42,818 bases of DNA from Campylobacteraceae bacterium (GTDB taxonomy: Bacteria; Campylobacterota; Campylobacteria; Campylobacterales; Sulfurovaceae). Positions 8,000 to 39,203 of this stretch are shown piece after piece. Below the pieces are notes generated by a model, which worked only from the letters and a program-made list of their open reading frames with translations, searched no databases and was not told the DNA's origin. The DNA is taken from positions 1 to 42,818 of the forward strand of contig JALVXC010000084.1 of NCBI GenBank assembly GCA_027038275.1, read 5' to 3'. Position numbers and translations under genes: made by a program. Numbering within the stretch: the stretch's first letter is position 1; each line of letters begins with the position of its first letter.

Positions 8000-10837
8000 A
8001 TGGCAAAAAAGAAAAAAAAACAGACAATTAAGATAAACAATAAAATAAAAGAGCTAATGGGTGGTGAACCTTTTGATGAGGGGATTAAGTATATAGACGA
8101 AGATATTTTACTTGACCTAACTATACTACTTGACCTAAGAGTTTCAATGTTTACTAAAAAAGAGATGGTTCGCTCATTACGTCAAGCTTGGTCAGAGGGA
8201 AACACTCAACTACGACTACATATTGTAAACTATCTTGACCAAATGAAGCTAAAAAAATCAAAAAACGATGAGAGAGACAAGGTATCTTATATTGTCTCTC
8301 TACTAAGTGAACATGAACATAGCAAAGAGGAGGAGCAAGAGATACTATCTGCTTTTATAGATACCAAGTTAAGTAAAATTAACTCCCAAAAGATTACCAA
8401 TAAACTAAACTATATTCGTCAACAAAAACGAATGAAGATTTGGGAGGAGAGGCTTGATGTTCACTTTAACTCTATTTTAGAGATGGAGTTCTACTGCTCA
8501 TATAGATTTGATATGAGTGAGGAGACCTTTTTTAAATCTTTACTTACCACTACAGCTTCAATCGAAAGTAACCTCTTACTTCATGAAGATGAAGAGTACA
8601 TAAAAAAAGAGTTAGAAGCATTTAAAACCTCTGCTATTGCTAGAAAAGAGGAGGAGATAGAGGCTTTTTTAGAGATTGTTAACAGTGACCACAAATATCT
8701 CTCACAAAGTGAAGTAACAAAACTTATTCGCTCTATGCCTCCTGAAGACTCTCTATATGAGATAGAGATTCCACTCTCTATTATTAAAGAGATTATTGCC
8801 ATAATTAACCCTGAATATAGGGTAACTATGCAAGGGAATAATATTGTTATAGCTATAGATAAAAGCTACTCTCTTTACGGGAAAAAGCTACCCTACACAG
8901 CTGTAGTCTCTTACGCTAGAGGTTTTCTATATCAGCATATTTGGAAAGAGAAACAACTTCCCATAATAACTGACATTACACTTGTTAAACAAGATATGAA
9001 ACAGCATTTTAAACAGAGCATTCAAGATATAGAAGATGAACTATTTGAGTTGGCAGAGGGTTTAGAGATAGAAGATGAGGTTGTAGAGAGCTATATTTTA
9101 CAGTTTATTGAACCACAAGTTACTTCATCTAAAAATCTTAAAATTAAAGAGAAGGTCAAACGACGTATTGTCTACCACTTTATGGAGTATATTCGCCCTT
9201 TAAAAGAGAAGAAGCGTAAAGAGGAGCTATTGGCTAAGACTATTCGAGATTTTAAAAACCTCTTTCCTTTGGCTAGATTACTTAACCGTGAAATTATATT
9301 TCATGTAGGGCCTACCAACTCTGGAAAAACCTATGAGGCACTTAAAGAGCTAGAAGAGGCTGAGACAGGTTACTACCTTGCACCTCTTCGTCTCTTGGCA
9401 CTAGAGGGGTATGAGACTCTTAAAGCCAAAGGAGTTGGAGTTTCGCTTATTACAGGTGAAGAGGAGATTATTGATGAGGAGTCGACACACATTAGCTCAA
9501 CTATTGAGATGATGAACAACAGCGTTGATGTAGATGTCTGTGTAATAGATGAGATACAGATGATAAACGACCGTGACCGTGGTTGGGCATGGGCAAATGC
9601 ACTCATTGGAGCTCCTGCTAAGAAGGTAATTTTGACTGGCTCAGCTGATGCACTAGATGCTGTAATCCAACTTTGTGACTACCTTGAAGAGCCACTAACA
9701 GTAAAACATTTTGAGCGTAAAAATGAGCTACTACTCCTACCAAATTCTACTCCTATAAAGAGAATTGAGAAAGGAACAGCTATTGTTGCCTTCTCAAGAC
9801 GTGAAGTTTTAGGACTACGTCAACAGCTCTCTCAACACTTCTCTGTCTCTGTTGTCTATGGAAATCTATCACCAGAGGTGCGAAGAGAAGAGGCACGACG
9901 ATTTAGAGAGGGAGAGTCAGAGATACTAGTTGCTACCGATGCTATTGCTATGGGTTTAAATCTTCCTATTAAAACCCTACTCTTTGCAAAAGACAATAAG
10001 TTTGATGGCTTAAGAAGGAGAGAGCTTCTACCTACAGAGGTTGCACAGATTGCAGGACGTGCAGGACGTTATGGTTTAGAAGAGGTTGGTTACATTGGTG
10101 CTTTAGATGGTAAAACCTTAGAGACCATAAGCTCCAAATTTTACCAACCTCTACCAAAACTAGAGCTTCCATTCTCTGTTATGGCTAGTTTAGAGCATGT
10201 TATGCTTATTGGTGAGATTTTAGAGACAGAGAATCTCTCTACCATCTTAAACTTCTTTGCTGAAAATATGGAGTTTGAAGGTCCTTTTGTAGCAGCAAAT
10301 ATTGACTCTATGTTGGAGATTGCAGCTATTGTAGACGAATACCGTTTAGACCTAAAGACACGCTTTCACTTGGCATGTGCCCCTGCTTCTATCTCTTCGC
10401 CATATATTGAGTCGGTATTTCACCGATATATCAAACAGATAGAGGCTAATAAACCTGTCAGATACTTCCCACCAAGAGACCTACCAAAAGTTGCACAGAC
10501 AAATGAGATGATGCTCAACGCAGAAGATAGAGTACGTGAAATCTCTCTCTACCTATGGCTCTCTTTTAAGTTTGAAGAGCTATTTCAAGAGACACAACAA
10601 GCCATAGATGCACGTGTTCGTCTAAACAACTACATTGAAGCCTCTCTAAAGCAGGGTAACTTTATTAAAAAATGTACACGTTGTGGAAAGAGTTTGGATT
10701 TTACCTATAAGTTCTCTATCTGTGATAGCTGTTTCACTAAAGGTCGAAGGGGGTCAAGGTCTAACAATAGAGGGGCTAGAAATGGTGGTAAGAGTTCTAC
10801 AAAAAAAAGTAATACTAGGAGGTCTAGGAGACGATAG
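8000..10837 (+). CDS. Suv3-like superfamily 2 RNA helicase
   Basis: A 945-residue ATP-dependent helicase. The N-terminal 430 residues are a helical, charged extension. The core has motif I GPTNSGKT (437-444, K443), motif II DEIQ (517-520), a SAT-like GSADA, and motif VI QIAGRAGR (683-690). GPTNSGKT, DEIQ and the C-terminal helical region are typical of Suv3/SUPV3L1, the RNA helicase of the mitochondrial degradosome. The C-terminus adds a zinc ribbon (C892, C895, C908, C911) and a tail rich in Arg, Gly and Ser (about 912-945) that should bind RNA. It is cytoplasmic, transcribed alone, and likely acts in RNA decay. The start follows only a weak Shine-Dalgarno. Confidence 0.85.
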   Translation: MAKKKKKQTIKINNKIKELMGGEPFDEGIKYIDEDILLDLTILLDLRVSMFTKKEMVRSLRQAWSEGNTQLRLHIVNYLDQMKLKKSKNDERDKVSYIVSLLSEHEHSKEEEQEILSAFIDTKLSKINSQKITNKLNYIRQQKRMKIWEERLDVHFNSILEMEFYCSYRFDMSEETFFKSLLTTTASIESNLLLHEDEEYIKKELEAFKTSAIARKEEEIEAFLEIVNSDHKYLSQSEVTKLIRSMPPEDSLYEIEIPLSIIKEIIAIINPEYRVTMQGNNIVIAIDKSYSLYGKKLPYTAVVSYARGFLYQHIWKEKQLPIITDITLVKQDMKQHFKQSIQDIEDELFELAEGLEIEDEVVESYILQFIEPQVTSSKNLKIKEKVKRRIVYHFMEYIRPLKEKKRKEELLAKTIRDFKNLFPLARLLNREIIFHVGPTNSGKTYEALKELEEAETGYYLAPLRLLALEGYETLKAKGVGVSLITGEEEIIDEESTHISSTIEMMNNSVDVDVCVIDEIQMINDRDRGWAWANALIGAPAKKVILTGSADALDAVIQLCDYLEEPLTVKHFERKNELLLLPNSTPIKRIEKGTAIVAFSRREVLGLRQQLSQHFSVSVVYGNLSPEVRREEARRFREGESEILVATDAIAMGLNLPIKTLLFAKDNKFDGLRRRELLPTEVAQIAGRAGRYGLEEVGYIGALDGKTLETISSKFYQPLPKLELPFSVMASLEHVMLIGEILETENLSTILNFFAENMEFEGPFVAANIDSMLEIAAIVDEYRLDLKTRFHLACAPASISSPYIESVFHRYIKQIEANKPVRYFPPRDLPKVAQTNEMMLNAEDRVREISLYLWLSFKFEELFQETQQAIDARVRLNNYIEASLKQGNFIKKCTRCGKSLDFTYKFSICDSCFTKGRRGSRSNNRGARNGGKSSTKKSNTRRSRRR

Positions 10838-18071: not shown

Positions 18072-19607
18072 ATGAAAAGACTCTATTTTTTTATACTACT
18101 ATCTACACTAACACTATTTGCCCAAGAAGATTATGAAAACTATGAACCACAACAGTTCTTTAGTGCCAATGATGTTAATGCATTTTTTAATTCCCAAGCA
18201 GGAGAGCTACTCAAAAAGATTATAGTTAATGGTAAAATCTACTATATGCAACAAGATGGAGACCTATATGATGAGGATGTGGCTACTATTGATGATGAAG
18301 TCTTTGGAGCAAAAGGTGAACGTTACTCTTTTGGAAAGTCTAAACGACTTCTTGCTACTAAAATCTACCCTAAACACCAAAAGGCATTCTACTCAAACTG
18401 TGACTATGTTGTAAAAGAGAAAAAGCTTATACCTCTGCCAAAAACTTGTGGATTTCACTATCGTAAAAACAAAAATCGTTCAGAGAGAATAGAGTGGGAG
18501 CATATTGTTCCTGCTTGGCACTTTGGGCATCAGCTACACTGTTGGCAAAATGGTGGGCGAATGACCTGTCGAAACCAAAATAGTAAGTTTAGACAGATGG
18601 AAGCTGACATGCACAATCTTGTCCCTGCCATAGGAGAGATAAACGGAGACAGAAGTAACTTTAAATACGGCATGATAGAGGGAGAGAAGCGTCTCTATGG
18701 AAAAGTAGATATGGAGATAGATTTTGCAAATAAAAGAGCAGAACCTAGACCTGAAGTACGTGGAGATATTGCAAGAACATACTTCTATATGCGTGACCGT
18801 TATGGAATGCGTATTAGTAAACCTCAAGAGAAGATGTTTATTGCATGGAATAATCTTGACCCCGTTGACAGATGGGAGAAGAAGAAAAATCAGATTGTAA
18901 AAGAGCTTCAGGGCGATGAGAATATGTATATTACTAACTATCATAAAATGAAACAGTTAGGAGATACCAAAGATGAGAGTAAAAACCCTACAGATTTTAA
19001 TGAAGTAAAAGATGAACTCTCTAAAAAGTACTCATTTATCTTTGATAAACTCTCTGCTCCAGTAGCATCAATTTTACTCTTTTTAGCTACAGCTTTTGTG
19101 GTCTATAGACGTAAAAGAGAGAAAAAAACAGAAACAGAGACTAAAACTGAAACTCCAAAAGAGCAGAGTGTAGAGACTAAAGGCTTTATGCTTCTCTCTA
19201 AGCTTGGTGATGTAGCTATTAGTTTTAATGAGAAAGATGAGGTGGTTATTGAAAAAGCAGATAAAAATAACCCTAATCAGATTTGGAGATTTACAAAAGC
19301 CAATAAGAAAAAAGAGTTCTTCTTTATAGAGAGTGTTAGTACTAATAAGGTCATAGAGGTAAAAGATGGAGACTCTAATGATGGTGCAAAGATTGTAATG
19401 GCTAAAAAGAAAAGACACAACAATGACCACCAAGAGTGGAAATTAGAGAGTTCAAAAGATAAAGGTTTTGTCTTTGTAGTTAACCGATGGACACTTAATG
19501 TTCTTGATGTCAAATATAAAAAGACCTCTGATGGCACAAAGCTACAGAGTTTTCACAAAAAGGTACGTGGTACTGAGAACCAAGAGTGGAAGATTGAGAA
19601 GGTGTAG
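18072..19607 (+). CDS. exported endonuclease I fused to a ricin-type beta-trefoil domain
   Basis: A 511-residue protein. A signal peptide (cleavage likely after LFA, residue 17) leads to an endonuclease I/NucM domain (about 80-270) with the core EWEHIVPAWHFG (141-152) and the downstream NGDRSNF segment (191-197), a metal-dependent non-specific DNase/RNase fold. A hydrophobic segment (about 329-345, PVASILLFLATAFVVY) is followed by RRKREKK and a Thr/Glu-rich linker. The last 140 residues (about 370-511) are a ricin-B-like beta-trefoil with repeated QIWRF/QEWKL/QEWKIE motifs. The basic cluster after the membrane helix would put the lectin-like domain in the cytoplasm if the nuclease is periplasmic, an odd topology. 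An AAGGAAA Shine-Dalgarno supports the start. The CitE-like gene follows two bases after the stop. Confidence 0.85.
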   Translation: MKRLYFFILLSTLTLFAQEDYENYEPQQFFSANDVNAFFNSQAGELLKKIIVNGKIYYMQQDGDLYDEDVATIDDEVFGAKGERYSFGKSKRLLATKIYPKHQKAFYSNCDYVVKEKKLIPLPKTCGFHYRKNKNRSERIEWEHIVPAWHFGHQLHCWQNGGRMTCRNQNSKFRQMEADMHNLVPAIGEINGDRSNFKYGMIEGEKRLYGKVDMEIDFANKRAEPRPEVRGDIARTYFYMRDRYGMRISKPQEKMFIAWNNLDPVDRWEKKKNQIVKELQGDENMYITNYHKMKQLGDTKDESKNPTDFNEVKDELSKKYSFIFDKLSAPVASILLFLATAFVVYRRKREKKTETETKTETPKEQSVETKGFMLLSKLGDVAISFNEKDEVVIEKADKNNPNQIWRFTKANKKKEFFFIESVSTNKVIEVKDGDSNDGAKIVMAKKKRHNNDHQEWKLESSKDKGFVFVVNRWTLNVLDVKYKKTSDGTKLQSFHKKVRGTENQEWKIEKV

Positions 19608-22065: not shown

Positions 22066-24795
22066 CTATGAACACATAAGCTTATGCTCAATCTCTTTTA
22101 CACCATCTAATAGATGTAGTGTTGCACAGCAGTTGTTACTGCTCTCTTTCTCTACAAATGTTATAGGAATAGCACCACTATCTCGTATAATTTCAACTAC
22201 TAACTCATCTGAGTTAATCTTTCTAAATGGAGCATCATCAAATAGAGCAAAAGAGTATTTTTTCTTATTAAGTTGTTCTAAAAACTCATTTGTATTGCTA
22301 TATGTATCGACACTATAACCCAAATTACTTAAAACAGCTGAGTAGATTTTTCCTGTTAAATCTAACTCTTTATAGAGTATAATATTTGACTTTTTATAAC
22401 TCTTTTCTTTATAATCTAAAGAGAGAGAGTCTCTAAGTTTTTGAATAGGGAAATACTCCTCTATAATAGATATAAGTTCTTTAACATCTATAGGCTTTTT
22501 TAAATATTTATCCATACCAGAGCTTAAATATTTTCTCTTATCACTCTCTATAACATTGGCTGTCAAAGCAACAATAGGAGTATGCTTTTTACCACTCTTT
22601 TTTTCATACTCAAGAATCTTGCTTGAAGCTTCCAATCCATTCATAATAGGCATTTGAATATCCATAAATATCATATCATACTGCTCTTTTTTATAATACT
22701 CAACTGCCTCTTCTCCATTATTTACTACTCTTACTTCAATGTCAAACCCAGTTAAAATACTTTTGATAAGTTTTTGATTAATAATATTATCTTCTGCTAC
22801 CAATACAGTTAAACCTTTAAATACCTTATTGGAGTTAATCGTTTTAACTGTTGCTATCTCTTTATTAAAACTATCATCTTTAACATAACTTACCTCTAAT
22901 GCTTTCATAGTTTTTGAGAAATTAATAGGCTTATAGATAGTTTTTGCAATTTTATCTTTTATACTGCTCTTTAATGTTTTTATTTTAGTATCGGTAAGAA
23001 GAATGACTTTTGCTCTAAACTCCAAAATAGAACGAATCTCTATATTGTTTTTTATGATATTATGCTCAACGAATATAATCTCTTCTAATAGATGCTCTTT
23101 TTTTATAAAAACATCTTCATAGTTATATTTTTTTAAACTAGCTCCTGTAAAGCTAATATAACGTTCAAGATTTTCATCTATGCTATCCTTTTTTTCACCA
23201 ATATAAGCTATTGACAAACTATCTAATTTAGGAATAACTCTTTTAATAGATTTTTCTGATTTCTTTAAAGGTATTACAAAAGAGAATGTTGTTCCAACTC
23301 CCTCTTTACTATCTATAGTTAACTCTCCACCCATAAGTTTCACTAATTTACTTGAAATAGTAAGACCAAGCCCTGTTCCTCCAAACTTTCTACTTGTACT
23401 TACATCTGCTTGAGAAAAGGCATCAAAAATTTTACTCTGTTGCTCTCTACTAATACCTATTCCTGTATCTTTTACAGAAAAATATACACTAACCTCTTCT
23501 TCTGATTCCATCTGCTTTTCTATTACAACTCTAATAGCTCCACCTGCCTTAGTAAACTTTATAGCATTACTAAGTAGATTAACCATAACCTGAGAAATCT
23601 TATTTGAATCTCCAACCAACTCCACAGGAAGCCTTGGGTCAATATATAGCCCCAACTCTATATCTTTTTCATCTGCTTTAGCTACATAAGAGTCAATACT
23701 AGATTCAAACTTCTCCATAACATTAAATGATATATTTTCAAGTTCTACTTTTCCTGCACTAACTTTAGAGAAATCTAAAATATCATTGACTATTGTTAAA
23801 AGGTTATTAGAGCTATCTTCAATAATATTAATAAACTCACGCTGTTCCTCATTTAGCTCTGTCTCCTTTAAGATATTAGTAAAACCAATAATACCATTGA
23901 GTGGTGTACGAATCTCATGTGACATATTTGCTAAAAAATAATCTTTTGCTCTACTTGGTTCTTTAATAGCATTTGCTAAAAACTTATAAATCTCTCTAGT
24001 ATCATTTTTTTTAAGAACCTCTTTTATCTCACTCTTTTGCCTTTCATCTAGGTCTGCTTCTATATCTTTTAAAGTATCTGATAGAAGTCTAGAATTTTTA
24101 TCTAAAATAAAATAGACATAAATCGCAACTAATAGTAGAGTAAATAAAATAGTAAAAGTTACAAATAATCTATAAAATTTTTTCTTTGCAACTTTAAGAT
24201 TCTCATTGATAGTCCCTTTAATATCAGAAAGAATCAACTCTTCCAATGCACCTAATCTACCTATTTTCTTATTAAAACTACTTATCCACTCTTGATTTGA
24301 AATAGTATATTTACCATTGACTAAACCTATAAAAGCTCTCCCTCTTTCTACTTTACATAGTGTTACAAAATATTTTTTTTCTAACATGTTATTAAGTTTA
24401 TTACGCAATAAAATATCTTTTATATTAGAGAAATTTGGAAGAACATCATTTTTAACCAACGCCTCCCAATGTAAAAGCTCCTCATCTGTCATTTTTTTAG
24501 AAGAGGTTAAAATAGCAGAGATAAATTTTTTCTCTTTATTTAAGTTATCTTCCAATTCTAACAAGTTTACAAAAGATGAAATTTTAGAATTATCTTCTAT
24601 GTTGGCTTTAGATATAACTTTTTTAACATACAAAATATTATCATCTTTATCTATTGAATTAATATACTTTGCACTACTATCTAATTTTGTATATTCACTA
24701 TATTTTATAGATAAATTATATACTACAATAAAAATAGAAATAGATAAAATAAAAATAAAAAATAGAGAGATTGTTCTATTGCTAATATTAAACAT
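22066..24795 (-). CDS. hybrid sensor histidine kinase with NIT-like periplasmic domain
   Basis: A 909-residue inner-membrane kinase. TM1 (about 8-28) and TM2 (about 209-231) flank a helical periplasmic domain whose second half, [15 protein letters not shown] and [11 protein letters not shown] (149-176), resembles the NIT nitrate/nitrite-sensing domain. The cytoplasm holds HisKA with H293 ([11 protein letters not shown]), HATPase (N410, DTGIGIS 443-449, GGTGLGL 472-478), a degenerate receiver-like segment (about 525-640), a true receiver (about 662-783, D712 in [10 protein letters not shown]767) and a second degenerate receiver-like region (about 798-905). It is last in a four-gene operon with three exported PilJ-domain proteins and starts 13 bases after the third. 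No DNA-binding response regulator is nearby. Confidence 0.9.
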
Positions 24796-24808
24796 ATTTA
24801 ACCTCTCT

Positions 24809-25567
24809 CTACTGATTTTTCTTATGATAAAGAGCTATATCTTCAATTATATTCTCTAAATTTTTAGCTGAAGAGTCTAAAAGGTTTGGTAAAAATAGTT
24901 TATCTGATTTATATAGAAACTCTCTATGAGTCTTCCAAATTGTACTCATCTCTCTACTCTCTTGTTTTAATTTGGAAGGATACCTATACATATTAACCTC
25001 TTTTATAATTTTATCAACTCTTAAAATAGCCTTTACCATATGGTCAAAGTTATTACTTTTGTCAAGATTTAACTTTGATGCTAAATAGTACTTTGATACT
25101 CTCTCTATAAGATAATCCATCTCTTTCATCAACATTAACATCTTCTCTTCTTTAGAAAAAGGATAGGTATGCATAGAGGCAATAGAGTTAGCACCCTCTA
25201 AAAAACTTTCACTATAATCTAAGATTAATATACTTCTCTCTTTTGTTATATTTTTCGATAACAACTCTTTTATCTCTTCTATATTATAAGTTAAAAAATC
25301 TAAAATATTTTTACTATCAATATTAGTAGTACTCATAGCAATATCATGTATAAATAGCTCAAGTTTCTCTATATCTTTATTTAACTCCTCTTTTAGCTCT
25401 ATTCTTTTAGGATTTGAATATAGATATAGATAATCTTTAGAGAGCTTTTGCCCCAAATAGCGTATATTTTCTGTTGCCTCTATAATCTTTACATCACTCC
25501 TTGAAGATGCATAGATACCTGTAGTTAAAAGATAAATAGCAACCAATATATATAATATTCTCTTCAT
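24809..25567 (-). CDS. exported PilJ-like sensor protein, degenerate motif
   Basis: A 252-residue protein with a Sec signal peptide (cleavage likely near YASS, residue 20) and no further membrane segment, so periplasmic. Two helical halves align with the two neighbouring PilJ-domain proteins, but the QRMxxQR motif is altered: [13 protein letters not shown] (34-46) and [13 protein letters not shown] (149-161) keep only the flanking pattern. It lies between the other PilJ proteins and the hybrid kinase, with 13-base gaps on both sides and a GGAG Shine-Dalgarno. It is probably a diverged paralogue with a changed ligand, or a structural adaptor to the kinase (inference). Confidence 0.75.
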
Positions 25568-25580
25568 TTAATCTCCATTG

Positions 25581-26372
25581 CTATTTATCTTTTTGGATAT
25601 ATAGTTTAGTTATCTCATCCATCTTTTTGGTAATATTGTCAGTTGTATTAAAAACAATAAGAGGTAAACCACCCTTCTCTATATTATTATAGAACTTATG
25701 AACAATCTTCCAAAGTTTATCTATCTCTTTAAGTTTTTTATCTATTTTTTCCCCATTATCTCTATTAGCCAATAAAACCCTTAAATTTTCAGAAAATTGT
25801 TTTACTGTATCTTTCATACTCTTAACTGTATTTTCATCTTTAATACCAGACTGGTAAGCAATATAATATTTAGCTATTCTTTGAGAAAGCATTCTCTGCT
25901 TTGCTACCTTTTCTAATAGATTAGACCCCTTAATATTGTGTGTCTCTTTTAATGAATCTACTATATATTGATTTCCTTCCAACATAGACTCAGTTAAATC
26001 TAAAATCAAATGAGCATTGTCAAGAGTAAAGTCTTTGTTAGCTATATCTTTTAGCTCACTTGAACTCAATGCAACAAAATCTAAAAGATTTTTTATTTCT
26101 GAATCAGTAATTAGTGTAGTTAATTCATTATGTATTTTTAAAAACTCATTAAGTGACTTTTTTAGTTGCTTATCTGCTTTACTAGTAGCTATTTTCATAC
26201 CCAAATATATATAATCTTTTGCTATACGCTGAGAGAGCATTCTCTGTTCTCCTGCAATATCTATTAATTTAGATACATTTACCGTTGAATCATTTTTACA
26301 AAATAAGAAACTCGATGCTAACAATAAAGATATAAAACCTAAAGTTATTTTTTTTACTATTCTATTTTTCAT
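25581..26372 (-). CDS. exported PilJ-domain protein with duplicated motif
   Basis: A 263-residue protein with an N-terminal signal sequence (hydrophobic 9-24; LFC is a poor lipobox) and otherwise soluble. It contains the PilJ/NarX-type motif twice: QRMLSQR at 43-49 and again at 159-165, each followed by IAK-Y. The exact 116-residue spacing shows an internal duplication of a helical hairpin. This domain (type IV pili methyl-accepting chemotaxis transducer N-terminus) resembles the periplasmic nitrate-binding P-box region of NarX, but here it stands alone with no transmembrane output. AGGAAA Shine-Dalgarno. Operon with two paralogues and the hybrid kinase. Confidence 0.82.
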   Translation of the reverse strand: MKNRIVKKITLGFISLLLASSFLFCKNDSTVNVSKLIDIAGEQRMLSQRIAKDYIYLGMKIATSKADKQLKKSLNEFLKIHNELTTLITDSEIKNLLDFVALSSSELKDIANKDFTLDNAHLILDLTESMLEGNQYIVDSLKETHNIKGSNLLEKVAKQRMLSQRIAKYYIAYQSGIKDENTVKSMKDTVKQFSENLRVLLANRDNGEKIDKKLKEIDKLWKIVHKFYNNIEKGGLPLIVFNTTDNITKKMDEITKLYIQKDK

Positions 26373-26381
26373 TATATTTTC

Positions 26382-27170
26382 CTATTTAGATGCTTCAACA
26401 TAACAGTGTGTTACTCTATTCATATCTTTTAAAATATCGTCAGATTTTTTATAGATTAAAGATGGAATAAAAATAGTATTTGACCTATTCATAACTTCAA
26501 AAAACATAAATGATTTTTCAACACTATCAAGTAGTTTATTAATCTCATCTGTATTAAGTTTAGATTTTTTTAACTCCTCTAATGAACTCTTAAAAAGATG
26601 CATATCATTTTTCATTTTTTTTTTAAATTTATTATCCTCTACACCCCAAACTTTTAACATATAAAGACTTGCCATTCTTTGAGACAACATTCTCTGTCTT
26701 CCTGATATATCAACTATTTTTCCTGACTCTTTCCCTGTCTCTTTAGCAAATAGTCCTGTAATATCATTAGCTACTGAAAGTAATAACTCTAAATTTTCTT
26801 GAAGCTTTACAACTTTACTCTTATTAGGAAGAGATAGAAGAGTTTTTTTAATTGGTAACCATATCTCTTTTGCCTTTTTAACACTTTTCTTTATATTACT
26901 ATTATTCATTGTATAATTATTAAGAGAGTCAAGATGGTCTTCAAATTCAGATATAGTTATATTTAAATCTTTATCTGCATTACCAAAACTATTTTTCATA
27001 CCAATCATGGCATAATCTTTTAACATTCTTTGTGTAAACATTCTCTGTTTACCTGCTATATCCACAGCATCATAAATATTTTTAATATCTATAGCAAAGA
27101 GAGAAGAGGTTAAAATAGAAAATATAACTATAAATTTTATAATTTCTTTGAATTTAAAAGGGAACAACAT
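26382..27170 (-). CDS. exported PilJ-domain protein with duplicated motif
   Basis: A 262-residue protein, first of the sensor operon. The signal peptide ends near SLFA (26). QRMFTQR (42-48) and QRMLSQR (159-165) repeat the PilJ signature at the same positions as in the next gene, so the two are paralogues with the same internal duplication. There is no output domain, so it probably binds a small ligand in the periplasm and passes the state to a membrane partner such as the hybrid kinase downstream (inference). A GGAG Shine-Dalgarno precedes the ATG. The gap to the next gene is nine bases. Confidence 0.82.
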   Translation of the reverse strand: MLFPFKFKEIIKFIVIFSILTSSLFAIDIKNIYDAVDIAGKQRMFTQRMLKDYAMIGMKNSFGNADKDLNITISEFEDHLDSLNNYTMNNSNIKKSVKKAKEIWLPIKKTLLSLPNKSKVVKLQENLELLLSVANDITGLFAKETGKESGKIVDISGRQRMLSQRMASLYMLKVWGVEDNKFKKKMKNDMHLFKSSLEELKKSKLNTDEINKLLDSVEKSFMFFEVMNRSNTIFIPSLIYKKSDDILKDMNRVTHCYVEASK

Positions 27171-37574: not shown

Positions 37575-39203
37575 TTAATTGTACTGTTTAAATCTTTCAG
37601 GTGTCTTAGTTGGACAGACTTTCCAAACAAATTCACGTCTCAACTCATGAAAAGCAGAATCCTCTTCCCAAAACTCAGGGTACATCACCTCTATCTCCCT
37701 CTCTTTACACAACTCTATCTCTTCGCCATGCTCCTCTAAAAACTCCTGCTTCTCCCACACAAAATCATCATCAAAAGCACTTTTAGCAAAACTATGTAGC
37801 TCCTCATAATAGTCACTAGCCTCAAAAACCTCATCAACCATACCAATCTTTTTAGCATAACTAGCAGAGATAGGCAGACACTCATCTAAAAGTTTTTGAC
37901 TCATCTCTTGCCCCACTCTTTTTGGTAGTGTGTAGGTATGGTACTCACTCCCTGTAAGTCCTAAAGTTTTGTAGTGAGGGTTAAGAGTAACATCCTCTTT
38001 TGCTACCACATAGTCACACGCCAAACCCAGAAACACCCCACCTGCTCCTGCATTTCTAGCAAAAGAGGCAACAGTAACTATCTCATCTGCAAAGATAATA
38101 GAGCGAATTAAATCGTTCATCGCATTGATATTTGCCCAACCGTCTTCGCCCTGTTTTTGGCTATCTTCTAAGATATTTAGGTGAATTCCATTGGAAAAAA
38201 AGTCTATTCCTCCTACCAAGACCAACACCTCACACCTCTCTTTAATATACTCAACGGCATACTTTAGCCGTATACATTGGGCTGTACTCATCGCCCCATT
38301 GTGAAAGTTAAAACAGAGGTAGGCGACATTATCTCTAAACTCTACAGAGGTCTCATAAAAGGTTTTATAGCTCTTGTCAAAAAGTAGAGGCAATCTATGC
38401 TCTTTTACCCCTTTTAGTCGCTCTTTTAAAACATAGGTAGCAGGAAGTTTAAACCTACCCACCTCTTTAAGATGGCTTATCCAAACAGCCCCATCTATAG
38501 TCCCTAGACAAATAGCCCCATCTCGTTTAGCCAATATCTCTTTAGGCTCTCCTCGTAACCTCTCCTCTTCCCACACTCCAAAGAGATAACACTCTACCCC
38601 TAAAATCTCATCTAACACCCCAGGTAGAGAGTCGGAGAGGTAGATTTTATCGATAATGGTTTGAGTAGTATCTCTCTGCCAATCAATCGCTCTTTTTGCT
38701 TGGGTAAAGGGTTCATGTATGGGGTTTAAAATCTGTGGGGTAGCTCTGTTGTTCTCTATATTTTCAAAAAGCTCATCTAAAAGTTCAAGCGAAGCTGAGA
38801 CCACCTCTTGACGATAGAGTGAAGCCTTATAGGTTTTACGTACCTCAAAAGAGGTCTCGGCATAGATGTCTCCACCATCATACTCACTATTGGCTCTTAA
38901 GACCACCACACCCCACCTTTTAGTTGGTTCTTGAAGTGCATACTCCAAACTGTACGCCCCTCTATCTCCTCTTGGAGCAGGGTGAAAGATGTAGGTTGGG
39001 TAGTTTTCATAGACAGAGGCAGGTAGATAGCTCTTTAAAAAAGGGCATAAGATAAGCTTTGGGTTAAAGGCTTCTATCTCTTGGAGCATCTGTTTTTCGT
39101 TGATAGCGAAGCAGACAGAGACGGTGTGGTTTAAATCTTTTAGTTTGCTGTAGATGGCTTGGGTTTGGGAGTTGAAGGTGGTTACTAAAAGGAGGATTTT
39201 CAT
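37575..39203 (-). CDS. hypX: hydrogenase maturation protein HypX (HoxX)
   Basis: A 542-residue two-domain protein. The N-terminal part (about 1-280) is related to 10-formyltetrahydrofolate transferases, with FHPAPRGDRGAYSLEYAL (73-90). The C-terminal part (about 285-480) is an enoyl-CoA hydratase/isomerase fold, with LVLVGGIDFFSNGIHLNIL and the oxyanion-hole region AGAGGVFLGLACDYVVA. HypX makes the CO ligand of the NiFe active site from the formyl group of formyl-tetrahydrofolate through formyl-CoA; cytoplasmic. It is typical of organisms that build hydrogenase in the presence of oxygen. GAGGA precedes the start. It heads the hypX-hypA unit. Confidence 0.93.
   Translation of the reverse strand: MKILLLVTTFNSQTQAIYSKLKDLNHTVSVCFAINEKQMLQEIEAFNPKLILCPFLKSYLPASVYENYPTYIFHPAPRGDRGAYSLEYALQEPTKRWGVVVLRANSEYDGGDIYAETSFEVRKTYKASLYRQEVVSASLELLDELFENIENNRATPQILNPIHEPFTQAKRAIDWQRDTTQTIIDKIYLSDSLPGVLDEILGVECYLFGVWEEERLRGEPKEILAKRDGAICLGTIDGAVWISHLKEVGRFKLPATYVLKERLKGVKEHRLPLLFDKSYKTFYETSVEFRDNVAYLCFNFHNGAMSTAQCIRLKYAVEYIKERCEVLVLVGGIDFFSNGIHLNILEDSQKQGEDGWANINAMNDLIRSIIFADEIVTVASFARNAGAGGVFLGLACDYVVAKEDVTLNPHYKTLGLTGSEYHTYTLPKRVGQEMSQKLLDECLPISASYAKKIGMVDEVFEASDYYEELHSFAKSAFDDDFVWEKQEFLEEHGEEIELCKEREIEVMYPEFWEEDSAFHELRREFVWKVCPTKTPERFKQYN

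Follow-up and report, generated by a model that had tools for sequence, protein, structure and literature searches.

A conserved PilJ-NIT kinase operon of Campylobacterota as a candidate nitrate sensor built from separate periplasmic subunits

Described nitrate receptors and kinases with accessory proteins

The ligand-binding domain of McpN (6GCV), a membrane chemoreceptor of Pseudomonas aeruginosa, binds nitrate on the dimer axis, between two identical protomers, through the Gly and Arg of its N-box (PMC6381276). Nitrate is not bound by the NIT domain of PA4520, nor by the PilJ domains of the PilJ receptor (PMC6381276). NarX and NarQ use the GxxR motif as McpN does, and the NasR site, although asymmetric, retains both arginines (PMC8199190). 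R176 of NasR is a predicted pocket residue (PMC7496416). The operon described here encodes two tandem PilJ proteins (J1 and J2), a more distant relative (P3) and a hybrid histidine kinase. Like McpN, J1 and J2 appear to have the four-helix PilJ fold with the N-box Gly and Arg, but they are predicted to be secreted and carry two halves on each chain. With NarX and NarQ the locus would share PilJ-type nitrate sensing tied to a histidine kinase, and the P-box GxxR. However, the NarX and NarQ sensor is fused to HAMP and a HisKA_3 kinase, whereas here PilJ is found on separate, free proteins and the kinase is a HisKA hybrid kinase, for which the Pfam search gives no HAMP match. J1 also resembles the NIT domain of NasR (4AKK) as a putative single-chain tandem helical receptor, and the J1 model aligns along the whole of NasR-NIT. 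NasR is a cytoplasmic antiterminator, while J1 is predicted to be periplasmic and separate from the output.

TorT-TorS and LuxP-LuxQ are kinases with periplasmic accessory proteins, and for GltB-GtrS it has been proposed that the membrane kinase is gated by a separate periplasmic protein, as we suggest here. The accessory proteins of these three systems are binding proteins of another fold. In the present operon there are several paralogous subunits, and the receptors and the kinase sensor appear to belong to related nitrate-receptor families. In the Cvn8 system of Streptomyces coelicolor (CvnF8/CvnA8), an accessory protein likewise accompanies kinases without an extracytoplasmic sensor, which belong to a kinase family where NIT can occur (PMC13343842). 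However, CvnF has a GAF domain, is modelled at the kinase catalytic domains and is not a periplasmic receptor (PMC13343842). A search of the open-access literature found no description of the architecture reported below.

The operon and its tandem PilJ proteins

The window, which is the whole stretch of 42,818 nucleotides analysed, is contig C84 in a fragmented assembly of a sulfur-oxidising marine bacterium of the Sulfurovum group. The nearest named relatives of this genome are Sulfurovum and Campylobacteraceae metagenome bins. The operon consists of four minus-strand ORFs, and the intergenic gaps J1/J2, J2/P3 and P3/kinase are 9, 13 and 13 bases; both the ORFs and the gaps agree with the original prediction. 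The signal peptides predicted for the three small proteins are borne out by signal-peptide-like starts in J1, J2 and P3, as read from the sequence. Promoter and terminator scans of the operon gave nothing better than shuffled sequence. The features, in window coordinates, are as follows.

26382..27170, minus strand: J1, predicted exported tandem-PilJ protein of 262 aa, first gene of the operon (PF13675 3.9e-17, two stretches)
27030..27065, minus strand: N-box of the first half of J1, VDIAGKQRMFTQ (11/12 of the McpN consensus)
26679..26714, minus strand: N-box of the second half of J1, VDISGRQRMLSQ (11/12 of the McpN consensus)
25581..26372, minus strand: J2, predicted exported tandem-PilJ protein of 263 aa (PF13675 2.6e-17, two stretches)
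26229..26264, minus strand: N-box of the first half of J2, IDIAGEQRMLSQ (consensus matched exactly)
25881..25916, minus strand: corresponding box of the second half of J2, LEKVAKQRMLSQ (Gly replaced by Ala, Arg kept)
24809..25567, minus strand: P3, predicted exported, putative degenerate PilJ relative of 252 aa (J2 homology; NIT protein adjoining in 53/53)
25448..25483, minus strand: degenerate N-box of P3, 12 residues (family residue counts given below)
22066..24795, minus strand: hybrid histidine kinase of 909 aa with a BarA-like cytoplasmic part (HisKA, HATPase_c, Response_reg)
24181..24708, minus strand: shortened, NIT-related periplasmic sensor of the kinase, about residues 30-205 (alignments A4 and A8; NIT in homologues)
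22462..22806, minus strand: receiver domain of the kinase (PF00072 2.3e-29)

A QRMxxQR domain had been attributed to all three small proteins. This holds for J1 and J2, which have two PilJ stretches each and PF13675 scores of 62.8 and 63.4 bits against a curated cutoff of 26.6; P3 of the window has neither the QRMxxQR motif nor a Pfam PilJ (PF13675) match. The N-box consensus of nitrate-binding PilJ domains is [IVL][ND]xAGxQRML[ST]Q. The first half of J2 agrees with it exactly and both halves of J1 agree at 11 of 12 positions, while P3 fails. J1 has two GxxR motifs within a single chain, and each of the two arginines is kept in 28/31 family members. The corresponding arginines of the two halves of J2 are kept in 25/31 and 26/31. 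These N-box residues support a putative role of J1 and J2 in nitrogen-oxide sensing.

The best match of the J1 profile among PDB sequences is McpN (5.9e-4), and it falls at the McpN N-box. The AF2 model of J1 (pLDDT 92.7) has eight helices beyond the signal peptide. In Foldseek, each half of the model superposes on McpN (probability 1.00, TM 0.75, 2.4 Å) and the whole length on NasR-NIT (probability 0.97–0.99, TM 0.62–0.64), with E-values of 0.3–1.2 for these model matches, which are not significant. From the paired GxxR motifs in one chain, and from the superposition of the model on McpN by halves and on NasR over its whole length, we read J1 as a single-chain pseudo-dimer.

More stand-alone tandem PilJ proteins, with no kinase adjoining, are present in the window genome (L049:7359-8213 and L050:1475-2371), and the one at L049 has two exact N-boxes. 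A plasmid search outside the phylum returned only two PilJ loci, both from Cupriavidus (L160:4184-5780 and L161:4217-5705); these are neighbouring pairs of PilJ-like genes, kinase-less and unannotated in the collection. Stand-alone PilJ proteins are thus not unusual per se, and their rarity had been overstated. No defined function for them was found described in the open-access literature.

Neighbours of the unit vary. A location next to nap or nrf is not supported, as no nap or nrf operon was seen beside the unit at the loci examined. Since napA is matched in 58/60 relatives, its co-occurrence with the unit does not discriminate. Near the operon, a plus-strand run (window:28467-31424) encodes a FecR-domain protein, an OmpA-domain protein and a CHASE2 histidine kinase with gaps of 0 and 3 bases, and it may be another sensor unit. 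The window also encodes a protein with a signal-like N-terminus that joins an Endonuclease I domain and a ricin-type beta-trefoil lectin-like domain in one chain (18072-19607), a SUV3-like RNA helicase of 945 aa with DEXQ-box, Helicase_C and SUV3_C (8000-10837), and a protein of 542 aa whose N-terminal part is formyl-transferase-like and which also has an enoyl-CoA hydratase domain (37575-39203). Weak Pfam matches to FliG_C, Sec8_N and Peptidase_A3 were taken as chance.

P3, the kinase sensor and the conserved gene order

P3 is 24% identical to J2 (about 1e-15), and by this sequence homology it is a degenerate PilJ relative. Its family matches PilJ weakly, in 8/18 members (best 4.9e-5), and the P3 profile has no relevant match among PDB sequences. 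The Gly position of the N-box is Glu in 37/37 members, and Arg36 is present in 31/37. The idea of three equivalent PilJ subunits is not supported, as P3 has lost the binding motif.

The kinase contains HisKA, HATPase and REC domains in Pfam and matches BarA of NCBIfam at 3.3e-136, under the family cutoff. Its periplasmic part had been described as NIT-like. This is supported by the homologues, as 19 of 36 homologous kinase sensors match Pfam NIT (PF08376; best 5.4e-15) and those of L077, L129, L130, L136, L141 and L142 score over the curated cutoff; the window kinase sensor itself has no NIT match. In the window kinase and three relatives, about 95 residues are gone from the first part of the NIT domain, the shortened sensors having 249 residues up to a common motif versus about 345 in full-length ones. 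Only 13 bases separate the stop codon of P3 from the start of the kinase gene downstream, and it is therefore unlikely that a longer reading frame was missed. With positions mapped by motif, the one matched to NasR R176 is Arg in only 1/36 kinases, the adjoining Glu is kept in 36/36, the first-half Arg is present in 11/32, and paired nitrate arginines of the NasR type are not found in the kinase NIT domains. The arginines of J1 and J2 are kept and those of the kinase NIT domain are lost; it is thus the free subunits, and not the kinase, that retain the binding residues. The model of the kinase sensor gave no usable structural match in the PDB, and the kinase profile matched nothing relevant among PDB sequences.

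Scanning with the P3 family returned 36 loci, whose genes were then assigned with J1, J2, P3 and kinase-sensor profiles. The order J1-J2-P3-kinase runs throughout these loci, some of which have extra J1 (and J2) copies; J1-J1-J2-P3-kinase is found in genomes of 2,217,891 and 2,562,277 bases. Where P3 has a downstream gene, that gene encodes the NIT protein and shares the strand of P3 in 53/53 cases, with gaps of -29 to 34, and J2 lies directly upstream of P3 in 45/54 loci. The linkage of an exported protein with a kinase, by which periplasmic-accessory-protein systems are recognised, is therefore present at 53/53 loci. These counts are centred on P3, and a J2-centred test was run besides on a phylum-wide sample, where the NIT protein adjoins 15 of 16 strong J2 places and all 13 J2-positive genomes are also P3-positive. 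In the order sample P3 occurs in 30/299 genomes, namely 14 of the window's family, 14 of one other family and 2 weak matches. In the second family the NIT protein is often just 330 to 584 aa long, with the ATPase domain weak or undetected. Gene order is kept there despite the shortening, an argument for assigning the PilJ proteins to the NIT sensor and not to the kinase core. Exceptions are P3-kinase without J2 (L076, L083, L084 and L144), a kinase alone (L068), J1-J2 without a kinase (L156), J1 alone (L157) and J2 with a J1-like protein and kinase but without P3 (L155).

The evidence is strong that the PilJ-P3-NIT kinase set is a real conserved unit. As originally predicted, free PilJ proteins and a NIT kinase go together, the order recurring in dozens of genomes of two families, and with the NIT protein beside 53/53 P3 genes and 15/16 strong J2 places, PilJ genes without the kinase are not the state of most relatives. 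The locus L082:4030-8759 is expanded, with five consecutive J-type genes ahead of P3 and the kinase, and its two J2 copies are near-identical.

A paralogous clade comprises L091, L092, L093, L097, L101 and L102, and the window genome has a copy of this type as well, L051. In this clade the loss of J1 goes together with that of both J2 arginines and of P3 Arg36 (J2 of L102 is only a fragment). The joint losses are probably one evolutionary event; even so, they tie these proteins together. Amt and PII genes lie near the paralogous type in three loci. The window genome's copy (L051:7554-11626, contig C89) is a second J2-P3-kinase operon whose J2 has no N-box, and it is preceded by PII and ammonium-transporter genes together with two porin-like genes. 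At the paralogous locus L143, a Fdh/NasC-like neighbour is under both curated cutoffs and is not claimed as a nitrate reductase.

Signalling model and alternatives

The conserved gene set suggests a nitrate sensor that is split into separate parts. We think it fairly probable that the operon encodes a multi-subunit periplasmic nitrate (or nitrite) sensor, in which J1 and J2 act, perhaps through P3, on the NIT hybrid kinase; for this model we infer the ligand, the adaptor role of P3, the contact between subunits, the direction of signalling and the output. J1 and J2 would be secreted single-chain pseudo-dimers of two PilJ four-helix bundles, with both halves on one chain where NarX, NarQ and McpN pair them by dimerisation. 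A single anion would sit between the paired N-box arginines of each chain. P3, its binding site decayed, would most likely be the adaptor between the J receptors and the kinase. The NIT domain of the kinase has lost the arginine pair, and in the window lineage also the first part of the domain, so we propose that it senses the state of the subunits and not the ligand, and would pass the signal to HisKA and REC.

A broader reading, which we hold only tentatively, is a modular array, in which soluble single-chain tandem-PilJ receptors, two to five per locus besides P3, would sit on a ligand-dead adaptor, and this on a NIT-family membrane protein with an exchangeable output. The output would be the hybrid kinase, or in the second family the shortened NIT protein with little or no kinase. 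Sensing, coupling and output would then lie on separate proteins of related nitrate-receptor folds.

The same architecture could serve another small anion or an organic ligand and be no nitrogen-oxide sensor at all. The variable neighbours, which are not nap or nrf, are consistent with this, as are the paralogous type without N-box next to Amt and PII in three loci and the lack of nitrate binding by certain PilJ and NIT domains (PMC6381276). However, window J2 has an exact N-box and J1 near-exact ones, and the nitrate-contacting Gly and Arg are kept across the main clade, so we regard another ligand as somewhat unlikely. It is also unlikely, in our view, that the ligand is sensed by the NIT domain of the kinase, with the PilJ proteins confined to modulation or to ligand delivery. 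NIT does score over the cutoff in many relatives, and kinases are found with P3 alone or entirely alone (L068, L076, L083, L084), but the position equivalent to NasR R176 is not conserved and the window kinase is without the first part of the domain.

A very improbable explanation is that J1, J2 and P3 are helical periplasmic proteins co-transcribed with the kinase and not receptors, for example kinase-regulated anion buffers or envelope proteins. The kinase-less stand-alone PilJ proteins of the window genome (L049, L050), L156 and Cupriavidus would fit such a role. Against it, order and adjacency are fixed in two families, even where most kinase domains are missing from the NIT protein, and the binding residues decay jointly in J2 and P3, with J1 lost.

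Returning to the split nitrate sensor, separate periplasmic partners of a kinase are a known arrangement, and what appears to be new is that these partners and the sensor of their kinase are drawn from related nitrate-receptor families. If this is true, the operon shows a fused receptor kinase taken apart into free receptor subunits and a degenerate sensor, and stand-alone PilJ proteins thereby gain a candidate function as nitrate or nitrite receptors. It would also be a candidate nitrate-sensing system for Campylobacterota, a phylum of importance for nitrate reduction and sulfur oxidation in vent and sediment habitats.
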